A DNA stretch of 10,616 nt from Flavobacteriaceae bacterium (GTDB lineage: Bacteria; Bacteroidota; Bacteroidia; Flavobacteriales; Flavobacteriaceae). Under the pieces are notes generated by a model. It searched no databases and was not told the origin of the DNA. It saw only the letters and a program-made list of their open reading frames with translations. A program made the translations under genes and the position numbers. Position 1 is the first letter of the stretch, and each line of letters opens with the position of its first letter. The DNA is taken from NCBI GenBank assembly GCA_029253805.1, contig JAQWYU010000286.1, positions 1-10,616 on the forward strand, read 5' to 3'. Shown here in pieces: positions 2,941 to 10,616 of this stretch.

Positions 2941-3028
2941 TTGTTAAAGTTAAAAAAACTCAATTAGTAGCCTAAAAAAATTAACAGAAAATTATTAGGA
3001 ATGATATGGCCTTAAAAATATAAAAATA

Positions 3029-3036
3029 TATATTTG
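3029..3036 (+). promoter_or_regulatory. Putative -7 promoter element (TATATTTG) for the YceI-family gene
   Basis: TATATTTG is an exact fit to the Bacteroidota TAnnTTTG element and lies 25 bp before the ATG at 3062, a suitable distance for a start site around 3043. No clear -33 TTG is visible. The surrounding divergent spacer (2941-3061) is very AT-rich and otherwise shows nothing I can name. Confidence 0.5.
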
Positions 3037-3061
3037 TGTACAAACCTTAAAAAAAATTGAG

Positions 3062-3634
3062 ATGAATTTAAAAAAATCAATATTAAAACCTGTACTAGTT
3101 ATACTAGCTGTGATGTTATCGGCTTACTCAACTAGCGATTCTAAAAACATAAATGTTGCTGAAAGTGTGATCAACTGGGTAGGATATAAAGTTACTGGAC
3201 AACACGAAGGAACTATAAAGCTACTAAATGGATCTTTGAATTTCAAAGAAAATACTTTAGTTGGTGGTAAATTCGCAATGGATATGACATCAATCAATAC
3301 AACTGACCTTGAAGGAGACTCCAAAAAGAAGTTAGATGGACATCTTAAAGCAGATGATTTCTTTGGTGTATACAATTTCAAAACTGCAACACTTGTATTT
3401 ACTTCAGTTAATAAAAGTAAACTGGGCTACGCGATAGTTGGTGATATGACTATAAAAGGAATTACAAATGAAGTGTCTTTTGATTTAGCGCTTACTGAAA
3501 ACAGTGCTTCAACTAACCTAAAAATTGATCGTACTAAATATGGTATCAAATACGGCTCTGCTAGTTTTTTTGACGGCATAAAAGACAAAGCGATCTACGA
3601 TGAGTTTGATTTAAACGTTAAATTAAAATTTTAA
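3062..3634 (+). CDS. Exported YceI-family (lipid-binding lipocalin-like) protein
   Basis: A 190-residue protein with a lysine-rich start and hydrophobic stretch (residues 10-20), consistent with a Sec signal peptide; there is no lipobox cysteine. The mature part is one YceI domain. It has INWVGYKVTGQHEGTIKL (37-54) as the first strands, a GGKFAMDMTSI strand, the KKLDGHLKADDFF segment typical of the family, and MTIKGIT before the final strands. YceI proteins are periplasmic lipocalin-like barrels that bind isoprenoid or other amphiphilic lipids; the ligand here is unknown. The gene has its own TAnnTTTG promoter element. It ends 66 bp before the trp leader peptide with no strong terminator between, so some read-through into the trp leader is possible. 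Confidence 0.85.
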   Translation: MNLKKSILKPVLVILAVMLSAYSTSDSKNINVAESVINWVGYKVTGQHEGTIKLLNGSLNFKENTLVGGKFAMDMTSINTTDLEGDSKKKLDGHLKADDFFGVYNFKTATLVFTSVNKSKLGYAIVGDMTIKGITNEVSFDLALTENSASTNLKIDRTKYGIKYGSASFFDGIKDKAIYDEFDLNVKLKF

Positions 3635-3676
3635 AAAAAAATAACAATTTCGTTATGCTTTTAAAGAAAACGTTAT

Positions 3677-3684
3677 TACATTTG
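3677..3684 (+). promoter_or_regulatory. trp operon -7 promoter element (TACATTTG)
   Basis: TACATTTG is an exact match to the Bacteroidota -7 consensus TAnnTTTG. It ends 16 bp before the ATG of the Trp-rich leader peptide, so transcription should begin around 3690 with only about 10 nt ahead of the leader. That position is what an attenuator needs. No convincing -33 TTG is present 17-23 bp upstream. A CGTTAT direct repeat (3651-3656 and 3671-3676) flanks the area where one would be expected. Confidence 0.6.
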
Positions 3685-3700
3685 AATTAACAATATTACT

Positions 3701-3757
3701 ATGAAATTAACCTTAAACAGTATTTGGTGGTGGAACTCTCGAAAAATCAATTCGTGA
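3701..3757 (+). CDS. trpL: trp operon leader peptide with three tandem Trp codons
   Basis: An 18-codon reading frame that is too short for ordinary gene finding, translating as MKLTLNSIWWWNSRKINS followed by TGA. Codons 9-11 (3725-3733) are TGG TGG TGG. Trp is the rarest residue in most proteins, and three in a row in a mini-ORF directly before trpE is the hallmark of a ribosome-stalling leader. The ORF sits between a TAnnTTTG promoter element and an intrinsic terminator that ends at the trpE start codon. When charged tRNA-Trp is scarce the ribosome should stall at codons 9-11. When it is plentiful the ribosome should reach the stop codon at 3755-3757 and cover the antiterminator strand. No Shine-Dalgarno is seen, as is usual in Bacteroidota. 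Confidence 0.93.
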   Translation: MKLTLNSIWWWNSRKINS

Positions 3758-3764
3758 TACTACC
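3726..3764 (+). promoter_or_regulatory. trp attenuator 1:2 pairing
   Basis: GGTGGTG within the Trp codons (3726-3732) can pair with TACTACC (3758-3764), giving seven pairs of which two are G-U. It shares bases 3758 and 3763-3764 with the antiterminator, so the two structures exclude each other. In an untranslated leader this 1:2 hairpin would free the terminator to form. It is shorter and weaker than the terminator stem, so this is the least certain part of the model. Confidence 0.5.
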
Positions 3765-3806
3765 TGTATTTGTTTAAATCAAAATACCAAGGCTTGTCAA
3801 TCACGA
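3752..3806 (+). promoter_or_regulatory. trp attenuator antiterminator (2:3 pairing)
   Basis: TCGTGAT (3752-3758) is perfectly complementary to ATCACGA (3800-3806). Inside this pairing CCT (3763-3765) pairs with AGG (3790-3792), and GTATTT (3766-3771) pairs with AAATAC (3782-3787). The downstream partners overlap the 5' arm, loop and first bases of the 3' arm of the terminator, so this fold excludes termination. The left strand includes the leader stop codon (3755-3757). A ribosome that finishes the leader would mask it, while one stalled at the Trp codons about 20 nt upstream would leave it free. All pairings were read by eye; no folding energies were calculated. Confidence 0.7.
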
Positions 3807-3820
3807 CAAGCCTTTTTTTT
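3789..3820 (+). terminator. trp attenuator: intrinsic terminator (3:4 hairpin) before trpE
   Basis: AAGGCTTGTC (3789-3798) pairs with GACAAGCCTT (3805-3814) around the 6-nt loop AATCAC, a perfect 10-bp stem with a GC-containing core. The 3' end runs straight into T residues through 3820. This is a canonical Rho-independent terminator lying between trpL and trpE, where it can only act as a conditional terminator. The T-run abuts the trpE ATG at 3821 with no spacer. Confidence 0.93.
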
Positions 3821-5221
3821 ATGAAAAATTTTAAGCTAAAAACACATTATAAAAAAATACTGGCGGATACAATATCGCCCGTAAGTGTATATCTAAAAAT
3901 TCGTGATCAGTTTCCTAATAGTATCCTACTAGAAAGTAGCGACTACCATGGAAATGATAATAGTTTTTCTTACATCTGCTGCAACCCGATCGCATCCATA
4001 AAAGTAGAGGCTAACCTGGTTACTAAAACCTACCCTGACCACACATTTGAAACCAAGTCTGTAGAATCTGAAAAGGTAATGTTAGAAATTGACTCCTTCA
4101 CTAAGCAATTTGAAACTCAAAATGATAAATCGTTTAAGTTTATCAATAATGGTATGTTTGGATTTACAGCTTATGATGCTGTTAAGTATTTTGAAGATAT
4201 CACTATTTCAAAAAAAGAGGACTCTATTGAAATTCCAGATATTTATTATGCGGTTTATCAGAACATCATAGCGATTAACCATTTTAAAAATGAAGCTATT
4301 ATCTTTGCACATTGCTATGAGCGTGAGAGCAATATTGAGATAATTAATCATCTGATTAAAAAACAAAGCTTCTCGTCCTATGATTTCAAATCCAAAGGTG
4401 AGATAATCTCTAACTTAACTGATAAAGCGTTTAAATCTAATGTCGATTTAGCCAAAAAACACTGCAGTCGAGGCGATGTATTTCAATTGGTTTTATCAAA
4501 GAAATTTCAACAAGATTTTAAAGGAGATGATTTCAATGTGTACCGTGCACTTCGAAGCATTAACCCCTCTCCCTTCTTGTTTTATTTTGATTACGGTAAA
4601 TTCAAGATTTTTGGAAGCTCTCCGGAAGCACAGCTTATTGTAGAAAATAAAAAAGCAGAAATTCATCCAATTGCCGGCACATTTGCACGAACTGGAGATG
4701 ATTTAAAAGATGCTGAACTGGCAAAGAACTTAGTAGCTAATAAAAAAGAAAATAGCGAGCACGTCATGCTAGTAGACTTAGCTAGAAACGATTTAAGCCG
4801 CCATTGTACAAAAGTTGTTATTGAAAAATACAGAGAAGTTCAGTTTTTTTCACATGTCATTCACTTAGTTAGCAAAGTCATTGGAGCGATTAAAGAAGGT
4901 ACACCAACCATGCAAATTGTAGCAGATACCTTCCCTGCAGGTACCCTCAGTGGAGCTCCTAAACATAAAGCTATGCAACTTATTGAAAAATACGAAAAAA
5001 CAAGCCGTGCCTTTTACGGAGGGGCTATCGGATTTATGGATTTCAATGGAAATTATACCCATGCAATCATGATTCGCACCTTTTTAAGTAAAGACTATCA
5101 ACTGCATTGGCAAGCAGGGGCGGGAATCGTTTCCAAATCCAATTCAGAAAGTGAACTTCAAGAAGTATATAACAAGCTAGGGGCTTTAACAAAAGCAATT
5201 AAACTTGCAGAAACAATTTAA
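3821..5221 (+). CDS. trpE: Anthranilate synthase component I
   Basis: A 466-residue enzyme that makes anthranilate from chorismate, using ammonia supplied by the TrpG subunit; first committed step of tryptophan synthesis. LLESS (36-40), followed by DYHG, matches the LLES tryptophan-binding motif of feedback-inhibited TrpE, and PSPFLFYF supplies the second part of that pocket. The chorismate-binding domain is complete: PIAGTFARTGDD, HVMLVDLARNDLSRH, FPAGTLSGAPKHKAM, YGGAIGF and QAGAGIVSKS appear in order. A longer frame from a TTG at 3770 is rejected because it would translate the terminator hairpin; MKNFKLKTHYKK from the ATG at 3821 is the natural TrpE start. The ATG directly follows the terminator T-run and has no Shine-Dalgarno. 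The gene ends 2 bp before trpG. It is likely controlled by the upstream attenuator and by tryptophan feedback. Confidence 0.96.
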   Translation: MKNFKLKTHYKKILADTISPVSVYLKIRDQFPNSILLESSDYHGNDNSFSYICCNPIASIKVEANLVTKTYPDHTFETKSVESEKVMLEIDSFTKQFETQNDKSFKFINNGMFGFTAYDAVKYFEDITISKKEDSIEIPDIYYAVYQNIIAINHFKNEAIIFAHCYERESNIEIINHLIKKQSFSSYDFKSKGEIISNLTDKAFKSNVDLAKKHCSRGDVFQLVLSKKFQQDFKGDDFNVYRALRSINPSPFLFYFDYGKFKIFGSSPEAQLIVENKKAEIHPIAGTFARTGDDLKDAELAKNLVANKKENSEHVMLVDLARNDLSRHCTKVVIEKYREVQFFSHVIHLVSKVIGAIKEGTPTMQIVADTFPAGTLSGAPKHKAMQLIEKYEKTSRAFYGGAIGFMDFNGNYTHAIMIRTFLSKDYQLHWQAGAGIVSKSNSESELQEVYNKLGALTKAIKLAETI

Positions 5222-5223
5222 AT

Positions 5224-5790
5224 ATGAAAAAAATAGTAGTCATTGATAATTACGACAGCTTTACCTTTAATCTTGTACATTATCTTGAAGATTTGGACTG
5301 CGAAGTAGCGGTTCTTAGGAATGATAAATTTGACTTAGATGACATTGGAGATTTCGATAAAATACTCCTATCGCCAGGCCCGGGAATTCCACAAGAAGCT
5401 GGTTTGTTAAATGCTGTGATTAAGAGATATGCTTCAACTAAAAGTATTTTAGGTGTGTGCCTAGGGCAACAGGCTATTGGCGTTGTTTTTGGAGGGCAGC
5501 TTGTAAATTTAGAGGAAGTATATCACGGAGTTCACACAGATATCACAGTAATTGTAAAAGACGAAATTCTGTTTGATCAATTGGGACCAACTCTACAGGT
5601 TGGACGCTACCATTCATGGGTTGTAGATGCTAATTTACCAAATGTCTTGGAAGCCACTTCAATTGATAACAATGGACAGGTGATGTCTTTGAGACACAAG
5701 ATATTCGATGTGAAGGGTGTACAATTTCACCCAGAATCAGTACTTACTCCCCTTGGAAAACAACTCCTAAAAAACTGGATTAACTCCTAA
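5224..5790 (+). CDS. trpG: Anthranilate synthase component II (glutamine amidotransferase)
   Basis: A 188-residue class I glutamine amidotransferase that releases ammonia from glutamine for TrpE. The N-terminus IDNYDSFTFNL is diagnostic for the TrpG/PabA group. PGPG (51-54) forms the oxyanion region. GVCLGQQ carries the nucleophile Cys79, and VQFHPES supplies the His169 and Glu171 of the triad. The protein stands alone, unlike the TrpG-TrpD fusion of E. coli. PabA-type aminodeoxychorismate synthase subunits share these motifs, and one amidotransferase may serve both pathways in some bacteria. Location 2 bp after trpE and 16 bp before trpD makes the Trp role primary. TrpE-TrpG form a cytoplasmic complex. 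Confidence 0.95.
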   Translation: MKKIVVIDNYDSFTFNLVHYLEDLDCEVAVLRNDKFDLDDIGDFDKILLSPGPGIPQEAGLLNAVIKRYASTKSILGVCLGQQAIGVVFGGQLVNLEEVYHGVHTDITVIVKDEILFDQLGPTLQVGRYHSWVVDANLPNVLEATSIDNNGQVMSLRHKIFDVKGVQFHPESVLTPLGKQLLKNWINS

Positions 5791-5806: not shown

Positions 5807-6796
5807 ATGAAACATATTTTAAGCAGGCTTATTAATCATGAAACTATTTCAAGTGAAGAAGCGAAACAGATTTTGATTAATATCTCTAAAGGTAACTATA
5901 ACCAAAGTCAAATTGCTTCTTTTCTTACTGTTTTCATGATGCGGAGTATCACTCTAGATGAATTAAAAGGGTTTAGAAATGCGCTTTTAGAGCTATGTGT
6001 TCCAGTAGATTTATCGGCTTATAATCCAATCGATTTATGCGGTACTGGGGGCGATGGCAAAGATACTTTTAATATTTCTACCCTTTCCTCGTTTGTAACG
6101 GCTGCTGCTGGTATTCCAGTTGCTAAGCACGGGAATTACGGGGTATCTTCAGCTTGTGGATCCTCCAACGTACTGGAATCTCTTGGAGTAACCTTTTCAA
6201 ATGATGTTAAGTTTTTAGAGCGTGCCATTGAAACAACAGGTATTTGCGTTTTACATGCTCCTTTATTTCATCCAGCTATGAAAATAATAGCACCTATCCG
6301 GCAGGGATTAGGGGTTAAAACTTTTTTTAATATGCTTGGACCAATGGTAAACCCGTCGGCACCAAAAAACCAAATGGTAGGGGTTTTTAATTTGGAATTA
6401 TTAAGACTTTATGCTTATTTGTATCAAGACTCGGATATAAACTACAGTATTGTTCATGACCTGGGAGGCTATGATGAAATTTCTCTAACAAACACAGTTA
6501 AAATTGTTTCAAATAAATCAGAGGTACTATTTTCAGCTAAAGATTTAGGATTAAAAAATAATACCCAAGAAGCCATTTTTGGCGGAAATACTATTGCAGA
6601 GGCCTCTAAAATTTTTAAAAAAATAATAGAAGGACAGGGCTCTAAAGCACAAAATAATGTTGTATGTGCCAATGCTGGTTTAGCGATTGCAACCGCCAAA
6701 AATCTCACGCATATTGAAGGCTATGAACTAGCCAAAGAAGCCCTTTTTTCTGGGAAAGCAAACCAATGTCTTAATAAACTAATCGCACTGAAATGA
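5807..6796 (+). CDS. trpD: Anthranilate phosphoribosyltransferase
   Basis: A 329-residue enzyme joining anthranilate to PRPP to form N-(5'-phosphoribosyl)anthranilate. The small helical N-terminal domain precedes the PRPP loop LCGTGGDGKDTFNIST, with GTGGD at 79-83. KHGNYGVSSACGSSNVLE (108-125) corresponds to the KHGNR-type anthranilate/PRPP segment, and RQGLGVKTFFNMLGP continues the conserved core. Tyr takes the place of the usual Arg in KHGNR (KHGNY), a substitution I believe occurs in Bacteroidota homologues but cannot confirm here. Length is normal for the family. Its stop codon overlaps the trpC start by 4 nt (ATGA at 6793-6796), which suggests translational coupling. Confidence 0.95.
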   Translation: MKHILSRLINHETISSEEAKQILINISKGNYNQSQIASFLTVFMMRSITLDELKGFRNALLELCVPVDLSAYNPIDLCGTGGDGKDTFNISTLSSFVTAAAGIPVAKHGNYGVSSACGSSNVLESLGVTFSNDVKFLERAIETTGICVLHAPLFHPAMKIIAPIRQGLGVKTFFNMLGPMVNPSAPKNQMVGVFNLELLRLYAYLYQDSDINYSIVHDLGGYDEISLTNTVKIVSNKSEVLFSAKDLGLKNNTQEAIFGGNTIAEASKIFKKIIEGQGSKAQNNVVCANAGLAIATAKNLTHIEGYELAKEALFSGKANQCLNKLIALK

Positions 6797-7581
6797 GTGA
6801 TATATTAAACCGTATTGTAGCTGATAAACGTCTTGAGGTTGGGCTTAGAAAACAACTCATTCCCAACAAACAGCTTGAGAAATCCGTTCTATTTGAACGC
6901 CAATCTCCATCGCTTAGCAAACGATTAATAAATAGTAATTCGGGACTCATCGCGGAACACAAACGCCGATCACCATCTAAGGACATTATTAATCAAAATT
7001 TGAACACCCATGATGTGGCAAAAGGGTATGAAATTGCCGGAGCTTGTGGTATGTCCGTATTAACAGATATGAAATATTTTGGAGGAAGTTTAGAAGATTT
7101 ACTGACTTCAAGAGCTAGTATTGAAATGCCCTTAATTAGAAAAGAATTTATTATTGATACTTATCAAATTGTAGAAGCTAAAGCCTATGGAGCCGATGTC
7201 ATTTTACTAATTGCTTCCATTTTGAGTCGAAACGAGATTCAAATGTTTTCAACACTAGCTCAAAGTTTAGGAATGGAAGTCTTATTAGAAATTCATAATG
7301 AGGACGAATTAAATAAATCAATCATGCCGTCCCTAAATATGATTGGCGTAAACAATAGAAACCTTAAGACATTTGAAGTTGATTTAGAAACAAGCAAGAC
7401 ACTAAGTAGACACATTCCTGAAAAATTTGTGAAAATATCAGAAAGTGGAATTCGTACAGTTGAAGATATTAATAACTTAAAAACCTATGGCTACAAAGGG
7501 TTTTTAATAGGTGAGAATTTTATGAAAACAAAAGATCCTGGTGCTAGTGCAGCAGCATTTATAAAACAATTGAACGGATGA
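6793..7581 (+). CDS. trpC: Indole-3-glycerol-phosphate synthase
   Basis: A 262-residue (beta/alpha)8 barrel enzyme that decarboxylates and closes the indole ring of CdRP. Catalytic residues are in place. Glu55 and Lys57 lie in IAEHKRRSPSK, Lys117 in PLIRKEF, Glu166 in VLLEIHNEDEL, Asn187 in GVNNRNL, and Glu217/Ser218 in SESGI. The family usually reads IAE-(I/V/F)-K around the first pair, and here a His (residue 56) occupies the variable slot between Glu and Lys. The protein is not fused to TrpF, unlike in E. coli. Both ends overlap neighbours by ATGA, with trpD before and trpF after. Confidence 0.95.
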   Translation: MSDILNRIVADKRLEVGLRKQLIPNKQLEKSVLFERQSPSLSKRLINSNSGLIAEHKRRSPSKDIINQNLNTHDVAKGYEIAGACGMSVLTDMKYFGGSLEDLLTSRASIEMPLIRKEFIIDTYQIVEAKAYGADVILLIASILSRNEIQMFSTLAQSLGMEVLLEIHNEDELNKSIMPSLNMIGVNNRNLKTFEVDLETSKTLSRHIPEKFVKISESGIRTVEDINNLKTYGYKGFLIGENFMKTKDPGASAAAFIKQLNG

Positions 7582-8192
7582 ACCTAAAAGTATGTGGCAT
7601 GAGATATGACCATAATATTCTGGAGATTGCTAGTGTCAAACCTGATTATATGGGCTTTATATTTTATGAAGGCTCTGCACGTCATATGACCTCGTCGATT
7701 CCGACCCTCTCAACTTCCATAAAAAAAGTAGGTGTTTTTGTCAATGCTTCTTTTGATGTTATTGTCGATAAAATCAATACCTACAATTTGCAAGCAGTTC
7801 AATTACATGGAGAAGAAATGCCTGAATTTTGTAAATCTATACAGGCACTTAATGTAAAAGTAATCAAAGTATTTTCTATAAAAAACAAATTTAATTTTGA
7901 CGAACTAACTCCTTATGAATCCGTTTGTGACTTCTATCTTTTTGATACAAAAGGTCCACTAGCGGGCGGAAATGGCTACTGCTTTAATTGGTCTGTTTTA
8001 GATAAATATCCGTCAACAAAACCATATTTTTTAAGTGGTGGGATTGGATTAGATAACATTAGTCAATTACATGCATTTAAAATTAGTACAGCATCAGCCT
8101 ATTGCCATGCCATTGATGTGAATAGTAAATTTGAAGTTGCTATGGCTAAGAAAGATAAAAAGAGTTTAGAAAAATTTAAACAACTATTATGA
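7578..8192 (+). CDS. trpF: Phosphoribosylanthranilate isomerase
   Basis: A 204-residue barrel enzyme doing the Amadori rearrangement of phosphoribosylanthranilate to CdRP. The catalytic base Cys6 sits in KVCGMR, and the catalytic acid Asp123 is in [30 protein letters not shown] (151-160) and the phosphate-side AIDVNSKFE follow in order. After that last motif the usual Pro-Gly-x-Lys-Asp is replaced by AMAKKD: the Pro-Gly is missing but Lys-Asp is kept. The start ATG overlaps the trpC stop and the stop overlaps the trpB start, both as ATGA. Confidence 0.94.
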
Positions 8193-9370
8193 ATTATCAC
8201 GTAAATGAAAAGGGCTACTATGGCCAATTTGGAGGAGCATTTATTCCAGAGATGTTGTATCCTAATGTTGAAGAATTGCGTCATAATTATTTGAAGGTAA
8301 TGGCTGAACCTGATTTCAAAAAGGAGTTTGATCAACTCCTAAAAGATTATGTAGGCCGACCAACCCCTTTATATTTTGCAAAACGATTATCTAAAAAATA
8401 TAACACAAAAATATACCTAAAGCGTGAGGATTTGTGCCATACTGGAGCGCATAAAATCAATAATACAATAGGACAGATTTTAATGGCTAAGCGCCTCAAA
8501 AAAACACGTATCATCGCTGAAACTGGTGCTGGACAACATGGTGTAGCTACAGCGACTGTATGTGCTTTGGTTGGTATGGAGTGTGTTGTATATATGGGAG
8601 AAATTGATATAGCACGACAAGCGCCTAATGTGGCACGTATGAAAATGCTAGGGGCGGAAGTACGCCCTGCACTTTCAGGAAGTCGTACTCTGAAAGATGC
8701 TACAAATGAAGCGATACGAGATTGGATTAACAACCCTGTAAATACTCACTACATAATTGGAAGTGCAGTGGGACCACACCCCTACCCTGATATGGTTGCA
8801 CGTTTTCAATCCGTTGTATCTAAAGAAACTAAATTGCAGTTAAAGGAAGTTGAAGGTCGAGAAAATCCTGACTATGTGGTAGCTTGTGTAGGTGGTGGAA
8901 GTAATGCTGCTGGCGCGTATTACCATTATTTGAATGAACCCAGCGTTAAACTCATTGCTGTAGAAGCCGCTGGAAAAGGTGTTGAATCGGGTGAAAGTGC
9001 TGCAACTTCAGTCCTTGGAAAAGAAGGTGTAATTCACGGCAGTAAAACCTTATTAATGCAAAGTACAGATGGTCAAATTACAGAGCCCTATTCAATTTCG
9101 GCAGGCTTAGATTACCCTGGTGTTGGCCCCATGCATGCACATTTATACAAAAGCAAACGTGCCGAATTTATATCGGTAACAGATGATAAAGCCATGGAAG
9201 CTGGTTTGGAATTATCGCAACTCGAAGGCATCATTCCAGCAATTGAAACTTCTCATGCATTGGCTATTTTTAAAGATAAAAAATTCAAGCCTAAGGATGT
9301 GGTAATAATTAGTTTATCAGGGCGTGGCGACAAAGATTTGAATACCTACATTGATTATTTTAAACTGTAA
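8189..9370 (+). CDS. trpB: Tryptophan synthase beta chain
   Basis: A 393-residue PLP enzyme condensing indole with L-serine. The N-terminal [15 protein letters not shown] is diagnostic for TrpB of the main (TrpB1) type. [16 protein letters not shown] contains the PLP-binding Lys89. AETGAGQHG holds the catalytic Glu112. [10 protein letters not shown] is the phosphate-binding loop, and SLSGRGDKD closes the active site near the C-terminus. Length fits the family (E. coli 397). The start overlaps trpF by 4 nt. It works as the alpha2-beta2 complex with the adjacent TrpA. It has the highest conservation and clearest identification in the window. Confidence 0.97.
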
Positions 9371-9374
9371 AATT

Positions 9375-10145
9375 GTGAACAGAATACAAATAAAATTACA
9401 AGAAGATAAAAAACTATTATCCATCTATTTTACGGCGGGTTACCCTAAGCTAAATGACACCGCTAGTACTATTGAAAATTTAGAATCAAATGGCGTAGAC
9501 ATGATTGAAATAGGCTTGCCATTTAGCGATCCATTAGCTGACGGACCCACCATACAGGCAAGCTCTACAAAAGCACTTCATAATGGCATGAACTCATCCG
9601 TATTATTTGACCAACTTAAAGACATACGAAAAACAGTTAGTATTCCTCTAATTTTGATGGGATATTTTAACCCAATACTTCAATACGGCATCGAAGCATT
9701 TTGTAAAAAATGTAAAGAAATAGGGATTGATGGTTTAATTATTCCAGACCTTCCAGTCGAAGTATATCAGGAGGAATACCAAACTGTTTTTGAACATCAC
9801 GGATTACTAAATATCTTTTTAATTACTCCACAAACAAGTGAAAAGCGCATCCGATATATGGACAGCATTTCCAAAGGATTTATTTACATGGTCAGTAGTG
9901 CCAGCACTACGGGAAGCCAAAGTGGTTTTGGGCAAAAACAAACAGATTATTTTAAACGAATTGCAGAAATGAATCTTAATAATCCACAAATTATTGGATT
10001 TGGAATCTCAAACCAGGAAACCTTTAAACAAGCAACCAAACATGCTAAAGGAGCCATAATTGGAAGTGCTTTCATAAAATACGTAACTGATAATGGAGTC
10101 AATGACTTAAAACAATTTACAGAACCCATTCTTAAAAAAGAATGA
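9375..10145 (+). CDS. trpA: Tryptophan synthase alpha chain (GTG start)
   Basis: A 256-residue barrel enzyme that cleaves indole-3-glycerol phosphate and channels indole to TrpB. MIEIGLPFSDPLADGPTIQ (43-61) contains the catalytic pair Glu45 and Asp56, equivalent to E. coli Glu49 and Asp60. YFTAGYP, LIIPDLPVE and GFGIS are the other expected motifs. A longer frame begins at a TTG at 9351, inside trpB. I choose the GTG at 9375 because the protein then begins MNRIQIKLQEDKKLLSIYFT, the normal TrpA N-terminus, and lies 4 bp after the trpB stop. This is the last gene of the operon. Only a weak AT-rich stem-loop follows, so the transcript end is not clear. Confidence 0.94.
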   Translation: MNRIQIKLQEDKKLLSIYFTAGYPKLNDTASTIENLESNGVDMIEIGLPFSDPLADGPTIQASSTKALHNGMNSSVLFDQLKDIRKTVSIPLILMGYFNPILQYGIEAFCKKCKEIGIDGLIIPDLPVEVYQEEYQTVFEHHGLLNIFLITPQTSEKRIRYMDSISKGFIYMVSSASTTGSQSGFGQKQTDYFKRIAEMNLNNPQIIGFGISNQETFKQATKHAKGAIIGSAFIKYVTDNGVNDLKQFTEPILKKE

Positions 10146-10221: not shown

Positions 10222-10616
10222 ATGTCAGAAATTAATTTCAATTATGGAAAAGGGTTTACATTCAGTAAACATACCGAGAAAGCCGTTTCAGATTTTGATC
10301 GTGTGTTTGGAGTATTTAAAGAACTCCTAACACATACATCAGGAGATATTCAAGAAGCTTTTGAATGGCTAAATACGCTAGACAACGAATACAATATTTT
10401 TAATGACCAATACACTCTTGAAAACTTTGAAGAGGATCTTAAGAAAAGAGGGTACATAAAAAAAGATATAGATCCTGATCAATACAATTCTGGAAAAGGT
10501 AAAGGAAAAGGAAAGAACATACTTACTGCGAAACTTGAATCAGCGTTGAGAGACTATGCTTTAAACCAAATTTTTGGAAAGTTAAAAAAAAGTGGTTTAG
10601 GAAATCACAGGACTTC
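10222..10616 (+). CDS. Conserved flavobacterial protein, N-terminal part; probably VWA-domain protein (partial)
   Basis: The reading frame is open from an ATG at 10222 to the window edge (131 codons), so only the N-terminus is seen. It begins MSEINFNYGKGFTFSKHTEK, is mostly acidic and helical, and holds a GKGKGKGK low-complexity stretch at residues 91-98 followed by ALRDYALNQIFGKL. From memory this N-terminus resembles flavobacterial proteins that carry a C-terminal von Willebrand factor A domain and often neighbour a MoxR/magnesium-chelatase-type AAA+ ATPase. The VWA part with its MIDAS motif would lie beyond the window, so nothing here proves it. No signal peptide is present. It lies 76 bp after trpA on the same strand and has no evident link to tryptophan synthesis. 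Confidence 0.6.
   Translation, partial: MSEINFNYGKGFTFSKHTEKAVSDFDRVFGVFKELLTHTSGDIQEAFEWLNTLDNEYNIFNDQYTLENFEEDLKKRGYIKKDIDPDQYNSGKGKGKGKNILTAKLESALRDYALNQIFGKLKKSGLGNHRT

Follow-up and report, generated by a model that had tools for sequence, protein, structure and literature searches.

What controls the tryptophan operon of this Flavobacteriaceae genome, and does the DNA directly in front of trpE hold the switch? The window (the whole stretch of 10,616 nucleotides that was analysed) belongs to a genome assembly of 1.65 Mb that is 77% complete. By TrpE, its closest named relatives are metagenome assemblies, listed as Flavobacteriaceae (93%) and 'uncultured Formosa' (90%). An initial annotation, made from the letters alone, had read the DNA ahead of trpE as a tryptophan attenuator in which a ribosome stalls on the leader. 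This reading is well supported by sequence comparison, because the elements that it names are present and conserved and an antiterminator can also be identified. We propose that transcription of the trpEGDCFBA operon is very probably controlled here by ribosome-mediated attenuation.

A leader, a run of Trp codons and a terminator precede trpE

The features on which our argument turns are as follows.

3677-3684, + strand: TAnnTTTG (TACATTTG), which we take to be a Bacteroidota-type -7 promoter element (read from the sequence; conserved in the family)
3701-3757, + strand: leader ORF of 18 amino acids, MKLTLNSIWWWNSRKINS, with its ATG at 3701 and its stop codon TGA at 3755-3757 (sequence, family survey)
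3713-3777, + strand: putative protector hairpin (1:2), which holds the Trp codons and the region 2 element (minimum-energy fold of the finished leader; permutation tests)
3725-3733, + strand: three consecutive in-frame TGG (Trp) codons, TGGTGGTGG, the putative regulatory codons (sequence, family survey)
3752-3757, + strand: core of region 2, UCGUGA, which in the window includes the leader stop codon (pairing tests, alignment)
3752-3806, + strand: likely antiterminator (2:3), UCGUGAU at 3752-3758 with AUCACGA at 3800-3806, inner pairs reaching the 5' arm of the terminator (fold of nascent RNA, 5' part masked as by a stalled ribosome)
3789-3820, + strand: intrinsic terminator, with a stem-loop at 3789-3814 and a U-run of eight Ts at 3813-3820 (sequence, folding, terminator scan, survey)
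3801-3806, + strand: core of region 3, UCACGA, in the terminator loop and the start of its 3' arm (pairing tests, alignment)
3821-5221, + strand: trpE, first gene of the putatively controlled operon (best NCBIfam match and gene order)
5224-5790, + strand: trpG (NCBIfam, ORF list)
5807-6796, + strand: trpD (NCBIfam, ORF list)
6793-7581, + strand: trpC (NCBIfam, ORF list)
7578-8192, + strand: trpF (best NCBIfam match and gene order)
8189-9370, + strand: trpB (NCBIfam, ORF list)
about 9351-10145, + strand: trpA, start uncertain (NCBIfam, ORF list)

The promoter motif, the 18-codon leader with its three TGG codons and the terminator abutting the trpE ATG had all been annotated correctly to the base. 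The ATG of trpE, at 3821, directly adjoins the U-run. The gene order trpE-G-D-C-F-B-A agrees with the NCBIfam matches. TrpE (415.7 bits against a curated cut-off of 517.7) and TrpF (129.2 bits against 215) score below their cut-offs, and thus their assignment rests on best match plus gene order. After trpA, at 10222-10614, the window holds the start of an ORF that has no Pfam or NCBIfam match and is cut by the window end.

By sequence and by folding, a terminator stands before the first structural gene. The leader region folds with a z-score of -4.76, and none of 200 shuffles was equally stable. A terminator scan of 3000-4200 gave three sites, two of which are a single hairpin read on both strands, compared with 0.4 +/- 0.8 in shuffles.

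The TAnnTTTG motif starts 24 nucleotides before the leader ATG. No TTG or TTTG, as a -33 element would have, lies 17-23 nucleotides upstream of it; in this one detail the promoter of the window is weaker than a textbook promoter. A scan with a consensus sigma-70 promoter, which does not model Bacteroidota promoters, found five sites where 5.8 +/- 2.3 were expected, and was set aside.

Leaders with Trp runs recur throughout the family

To avoid selection bias, the loci of our survey were trpE genes found by protein search and not by an RNA model. We took 500 nucleotides upstream of each trpE, listed ATG ORFs of 7-45 codons, and called terminators by a rule of our own. The family sample consisted of 108 TrpE matches, minus one at a contig end (G066), plus three family rows from the class sample, which makes 110 upstream regions.

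Within 250 nucleotides of trpE, 104 of the 110 family upstreams have an ATG leader in which two or more Trp codons follow one another, and 99 of the 110 had both such a leader and a terminator. In the rest of the class, these figures were 28 of 46 and 23 of 46. Chance does not produce such runs at this rate. Among the 109 family upstreams of at least 150 nucleotides, an ATG ORF contained a run of three Trp codons in 93 and a run of two in 12, compared with 11 runs of two and none of three in 2180 dinucleotide shuffles. The 880 shuffles of class sequences gave 15 runs of two and none of three, and on the reverse strands a run of two was found once in 109 family and twice in 44 class sequences. 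In named relatives with enough upstream DNA, 77 of 78 have at least two consecutive Trp codons when TTG and GTG starts are allowed.

Eleven family rows fall outside the 99. Five have no terminator by our rule, though a hairpin can be seen by eye in each, and six have no nearby ATG leader. Of these six, two have leaders starting with TTG, one is cut by the contig end with its Trp codons still visible, one has its leader farther off, and one has an Rfam match farther upstream than the stretch taken. This leaves one genome (L193) among the 110 trpE upstreams in which no trace of a leader could be seen by eye. The initial annotation had named relatives lacking both Trp codons and terminator as the sign of a false reading; the survey does not refute it, with 104 upstreams that have such leaders, 99 that have terminators as well, and this single traceless one. 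These results indicate that classical attenuation is the rule for the trp genes of a large family outside the Proteobacteria.

Two minor observations concern the DNA between leader and structural gene. In one genome, a gene of the GIY-YIG nuclease type (PF01541, E 7.3e-17; L135:148-444, minus strand) lies between the attenuator and trpE. In another, a short remnant at the equivalent place (L061:2993-3088, minus strand) resembles by eye the start of a GIY-YIG gene.

Promoter motif and Shine-Dalgarno words were counted relative to the leader start, for which we took the in-frame Met closest upstream of the Trp run. TAnnTTTG was found within 60 nucleotides upstream of this start in 97 of 99 family rows, compared with 160 of 1980 shuffles. 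Not one of the 99 rows carries a Shine-Dalgarno-like word (AGGAG, GGAGG, GAGGT or AAGGA) within 20 nucleotides of the leader start, in agreement with the earlier expectation that leader translation would have to begin without one. In 22 of the 97 rows with the motif, TAnnTTTG begins 12-13 nucleotides ahead of the leader ATG. If transcription starts a few bases past TAnnTTTG, hardly any 5' leader would precede these ORFs, and the peptides of these 22 may be translated from almost leaderless transcripts. Because they lack Shine-Dalgarno-like sites, the leaders could serve as natural reporters of how translation starts near the 5' end of a transcript in Bacteroidota.

These conserved elements bear on two other explanations of the region. 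The hairpin might be nothing more than the terminator of the upstream YceI-like gene (3062-3634), with the short ORF incidental. That gene does lie on the same strand as the attenuator, and a terminator is called at the hairpin on either strand, but between the two stand a promoter motif kept in 97 of 99 rows and a Trp-run ORF kept in 104 of 110, with a run of three Trp codons that none of the 2180 shuffles reproduced. We regard this explanation as extremely improbable. We give equally little credence to sensing by a T-box, a TRAP-like protein or a repressor, in which case the leader peptide would be of no importance. Such sensors are known in other phyla, but in a search at E values up to 5 the window matches neither a T-box nor any further leader family besides the Bacteroidete leader model discussed below, and the Trp-codon runs recur far above shuffles. 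The sequence comparisons support the leader, its Trp codons, the promoter motif and the terminator as parts of a tryptophan attenuator.

An RNA element near the leader stop is complementary to the terminator loop

An attenuator of this kind needs an antiterminator. UCACGA, which lies in the terminator loop and extends two bases into the 3' arm, is complementary to UCGUGA in the leader. In a MAFFT alignment of 99 family rows, selected for Trp runs and a terminator, exact copies of both elements occur together in 74. As the rows were chosen for Trp runs, the conserved TGG columns were not used as evidence. Family terminators share the form GGCUUGUC-loop-GACAAGCC, with UCAC in the loop, and the terminator stem is paired in 99.9% of alignment cells in these rows preselected for having one.

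The 2:3 helix is paired in 84.3% of alignment cells, and six of its eight pairs have changed on both sides. Compensated variants include UCGCAA with UUGCGA and UCGCGA with UCGCGA, in one row each. None of 500 shuffles matched the observed helix on any of five measures. Sliding the helix by 1-3 columns lowered pairing to 19-49%, a control that favours a structure derived from these same sequences. The outermost two pairs form in just 41 of 98 and 51 of 89 rows. The initial annotation had suggested aligning the upstream regions of relatives and looking for recurrent Trp-codon runs and covarying stems; the runs recur in the family, and the compensatory changes are found in the 2:3 helix.

We also compared the pairing of each leader with its own terminator and with the terminators of other rows, using the 99 of 110 family rows and the 23 of 46 other class rows; these permutations, like the shuffles, ignore relatedness among the rows. 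In the family, none of 5000 permutations reached the mean for own pairs (-13.9 compared with -13.1 kcal/mol for swapped pairs, 99 rows), and the same was true of the class (-17.0 compared with -13.8, 23 rows), where the elements differ in sequence from those of the family, for instance GAACAGC with GCUGUUC. Own pairing was better than the mean of partners with a different terminator in 68 of the 99 family rows and 20 of the 23 from the class. Single rows speak less uniformly: the own pairing was reached by no more than 10 of 200 shuffles in 63 of the 99 family rows and in 12 of the 23 from the class, and the 2:3 duplex of the window is not outstanding by itself, since 13 of 200 shuffles pair as well. 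In a set of 69 nearer named relatives, leaders paired no better with their own terminators than with swapped ones (880 of 5000 permutations). These 69 were drawn from 80, leaving out five duplicates, two that were cut, one without a leader and three without a terminator by our rule; four of them have UAACGA in the loop, with one mismatch. The attenuators of the class outside the family (L090-L116, L194-L195, L197-L213) differ in their terminators, which often read GCCCGCTGTTC, and carry leader elements to match.

What is being conserved at UCGUGA? Of the 99 family rows, 83 contain the element, and in 78 of these 83 it lies 18-19 nucleotides past the last Trp codon. Its reading frame varies: in the 99 rows it encodes Ser-stop in 43, falls within the ORF but in a different frame in 23, lies beyond the stop in 17, and is absent in its exact form in 16. 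As UCGUGA is kept whichever its frame, the constraint appears to act on the RNA rather than on the peptide. This bears on the idea that the terminated leader RNA or its peptide also acts in trans, which would be compatible with an attenuator. A terminated leader of about 130 nucleotides would be made, and the leader peptide peTrpL of Sinorhizobium is reported to act in trans (PMC7298713). Yet the frame in which UCGUGA is conserved varies, so that selection is not preserving the peptide tail. We find such an additional role quite improbable.

The pairing might also be real and do something else. UCGUGA:UCACGA could clamp the terminator loop as a pseudoknot, or tune pausing, while the tryptophan switch works in another way. 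The core pairs (alignment columns 105-110) involve the loop and, of the 3' arm, no more than its first two bases, and so they could partly coexist with the terminator stem. But the inner 2:3 pairs reach the 5' arm of the terminator, and UCGUGA, 18-19 nucleotides past the Trp codons and over or near the stop, lies at the position needed for an antiterminator that a terminating ribosome masks. We consider a clamp or pausing element unlikely, and UCGUGA:UCACGA is likely the antiterminator of the trp attenuator, judging from pairing and position. Among the openly licensed papers searched, we found no text that describes this 2:3 pairing; further work on Bacteroidota attenuation may exist in subscription journals.

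The 1:2 pairing was compared in the same way. The Trp-codon region pairs with the stretch around and after UCGUGA better in own than in swapped combinations (0 of 5000 permutations, 99 family and 23 class rows), so that comparison across rows supports both the 1:2 and the 2:3 pairing.

Folding of the nascent RNA and a model for the switch

We folded the nascent RNA with its 5' part masked up to an assumed 12 nucleotides past the codon occupied by the ribosome. When the ribosome stands on the Trp codons, bases of the terminator region are paired with upstream RNA (about 11-12 of them at the peak in the window) until the last few bases of the 3' arm have been synthesized. When it stands at the stop, the terminator region pairs within itself. 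Ribosome-free RNA is intermediate between the stalled and the terminating state. Masked folding separates these two states in the window and in the averages for family and class.

Ribosome-free nascent RNA of the window ending at 3806 also adopts 2:3 before the terminator, and switches sooner than the stalled state does. Thus, the role of the protector hairpin is weakly borne out and is the least supported part of the model. In the finished RNA, the terminator prevails in every state, even with the 5' part masked. Read-through would thus depend on timing and kinetics, as in the classical model.

Based on these results, we propose a model in which the start site, leader translation, stalling, response to tryptophan and read-through are inferred. 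RNA polymerase would start shortly past 3684, and a ribosome would start the short leader without a Shine-Dalgarno sequence. If Trp-tRNA is ample, the ribosome would reach the stop codon at 3755-3757, inside UCGUGA, and cover the element; in the source genome, the stop codon lies within region 2, which would place a terminating ribosome right on top of that region. With UCGUGA covered, the terminator at 3789-3820 would fold and transcription would stop before trpE. If Trp-tRNA is scarce, the ribosome would stall on the TGG codons and leave UCGUGA, 18 nucleotides downstream, free. As the terminator is being synthesized, UCGUGA could then pair with UCACGA, and nearby bases with the 5' arm, which would allow read-through; this antitermination by 2:3 pairing is what folding with the assumed 12-nucleotide ribosome mask predicts. 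If no ribosome is present, the 1:2 hairpin would compete for region 2 and favour the terminator. UCGUGA:UCACGA is thus offered as a candidate switch element, whose mechanism is directly testable by compensatory mutation.

The classical counterpart of this design is trpL of Escherichia coli, which has two Trp codons, competing 1:2, 2:3 and 3:4 conformations, and a terminator before trpE. The window resembles it in its Trp codons, in its predicted competing conformations and in the place of its terminator. Unlike trpL, the window and its family have a Bacteroidota promoter motif and no Shine-Dalgarno sequence. The window also has three Trp codons where trpL has two, and its region 2 overlaps the leader stop codon and is predicted to pair by way of the terminator loop.

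A known leader family and a sub-threshold relative

Large-scale attenuator surveys have included Bacteroidota. The novelty that the initial annotation implied is not supported. When Rfam was searched for an existing model, as had been suggested, RF01692 ('Bacteroidete tryptophan peptide leader RNA') matched the window at 3678-3798, with 40.4 bits (E 0.054) against a cut-off of 49. The match is full-length, with model positions 1-131 on 3678-3798, and ends 22 bases before trpE. The window also aligns with 98 relatives, many from genomes with RF01692 matches over the cut-off, and shares with these preselected rows the TCGTGA and GGCTTGTC columns. Thus, with a score under the cut-off and a full-length, alignable match, the window is a sub-threshold relative of RF01692 and not a curated member. 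Two further Rfam matches, snoZ267 and AaHKsRNA41, were weak and far below their cut-offs, and were dismissed.

RF01692 is the element described here, and it has a literature. The Bacteroid-trp motif was listed in Bacteroidetes by Weinberg et al. (2010, PMC2864571). A Bacteroid-Trp RNA conserved upstream of the trp operon of Flavobacterium psychrophilum has been likened to E. coli attenuation (2019, PMC6414381), and the transcriptome of F. psychrophilum gave clues to leader-peptide attenuation ahead of amino-acid operons (2021, PMC9723704). RF01692 resembles the window in its place upstream of trp genes in Bacteroidetes, its UGG-codon leader, its hairpin over the Trp codons and its terminator 5' arm, GGCUUGUC. 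Unlike the window, the consensus of RF01692 ends in that arm, at GGCUUGUC, without the 3' arm; UCACGA, the partner of UCGUGA, is thus missing from the model. The F. psychrophilum transcriptome study likewise resembles our results in its clues to attenuation of amino-acid operons and its 5' elements before pheA and hisG, but the available portions of its main text give no pairings (PMC9723704). Thus, the Rfam entry and the F. psychrophilum papers make the kind already known, and the copy in the window is new and sub-threshold. The antiterminator pairing and the sister switches before hisG and pheA come out more clearly here than in the prior catalogue.

How much of the family does the model recover? 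Of 120 family genomes, 87 have an RF01692 match at E 0.001 and 77 have one over the cut-off; the genome of the window itself had no match at E 0.001. In a phylum sample searched with strict filters, which lose weak matches, RF01692 was found in 29 of 296 genomes, of which 27 are Flavobacteriaceae. Nine class genomes outside the family that gave no RF01692 match in this phylum sample were also covered by our trpE survey (G121, G126, G131, G152, G156, G168, G191, G195, G199); a leader with a Trp run is present in eight of the nine, together with a terminator by our rule in four of the nine. The Rfam cut-off and the boundary of the model miss likely members.

Histidine and phenylalanine leaders

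We took 30 of 49 hisG matches and 30 of 51 matches to pheA-type genes, plus the two corresponding stretches of the genome of the window. Upstream of hisG, an ATG ORF with at least three consecutive His codons was found in 27 of 30 loci, compared with none of 150 shuffles. Upstream of pheA-type genes, at least three consecutive Phe codons were found in 17 of 30 loci, compared with 12 of 150 shuffles; judged by run length alone, the phenylalanine signal is weaker. The genome of the window has MNLFLVIHSHHILTGFQAR before hisG (L355) and MVKLNYIFYSFYYFFFGKEVETLYV before pheA (L354), each followed by a terminator.

In both groups, leaders pair better with their own terminators than with swapped ones: 16 of 5000 permutations reached the observed value for his (30 of 31 loci), and none of 5000 for phe (26 of 31 loci). 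Taken singly, 14 of 30 his and 12 of 26 phe loci have a pairing that no more than 5 of 100 shuffles reached. No Rfam match over its cut-off was found in the 16 relative loci scanned (8 his and 8 phe, of 60, the two own stretches left out). Conserved 5' elements without Rfam hits have been described before pheA and hisG in the family (PMC9723704).

These results indicate his and phe attenuators of similar design within the same genomes. We favour, as a probable reading, that one common design of ribosome-mediated attenuation governs the trp, his and phe operons, at least, throughout the Flavobacteriaceae and, in the case of trp, in much of the class. The design would consist of a run of regulatory codons followed by an RNA element near the leader stop that pairs with the loop or 5' arm of the terminator, independent of frame in trp; the leaders would have short 5' ends and no Shine-Dalgarno sequence, and some would possibly be leaderless.

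The two sister groups have features of their own. The his leaders (L355, L214-L243) have a recurring peptide tail (SQAR, TQAS and similar) that corresponds to CUCAAGCGA, which is complementary to the terminator sequence CGUUUGAG. The phe leaders (L354, L244-L273) are Phe/Tyr-rich ORFs followed by a terminator before prephenate dehydratase genes, and a stretch near the leader end pairs with the 5' arm of that terminator.
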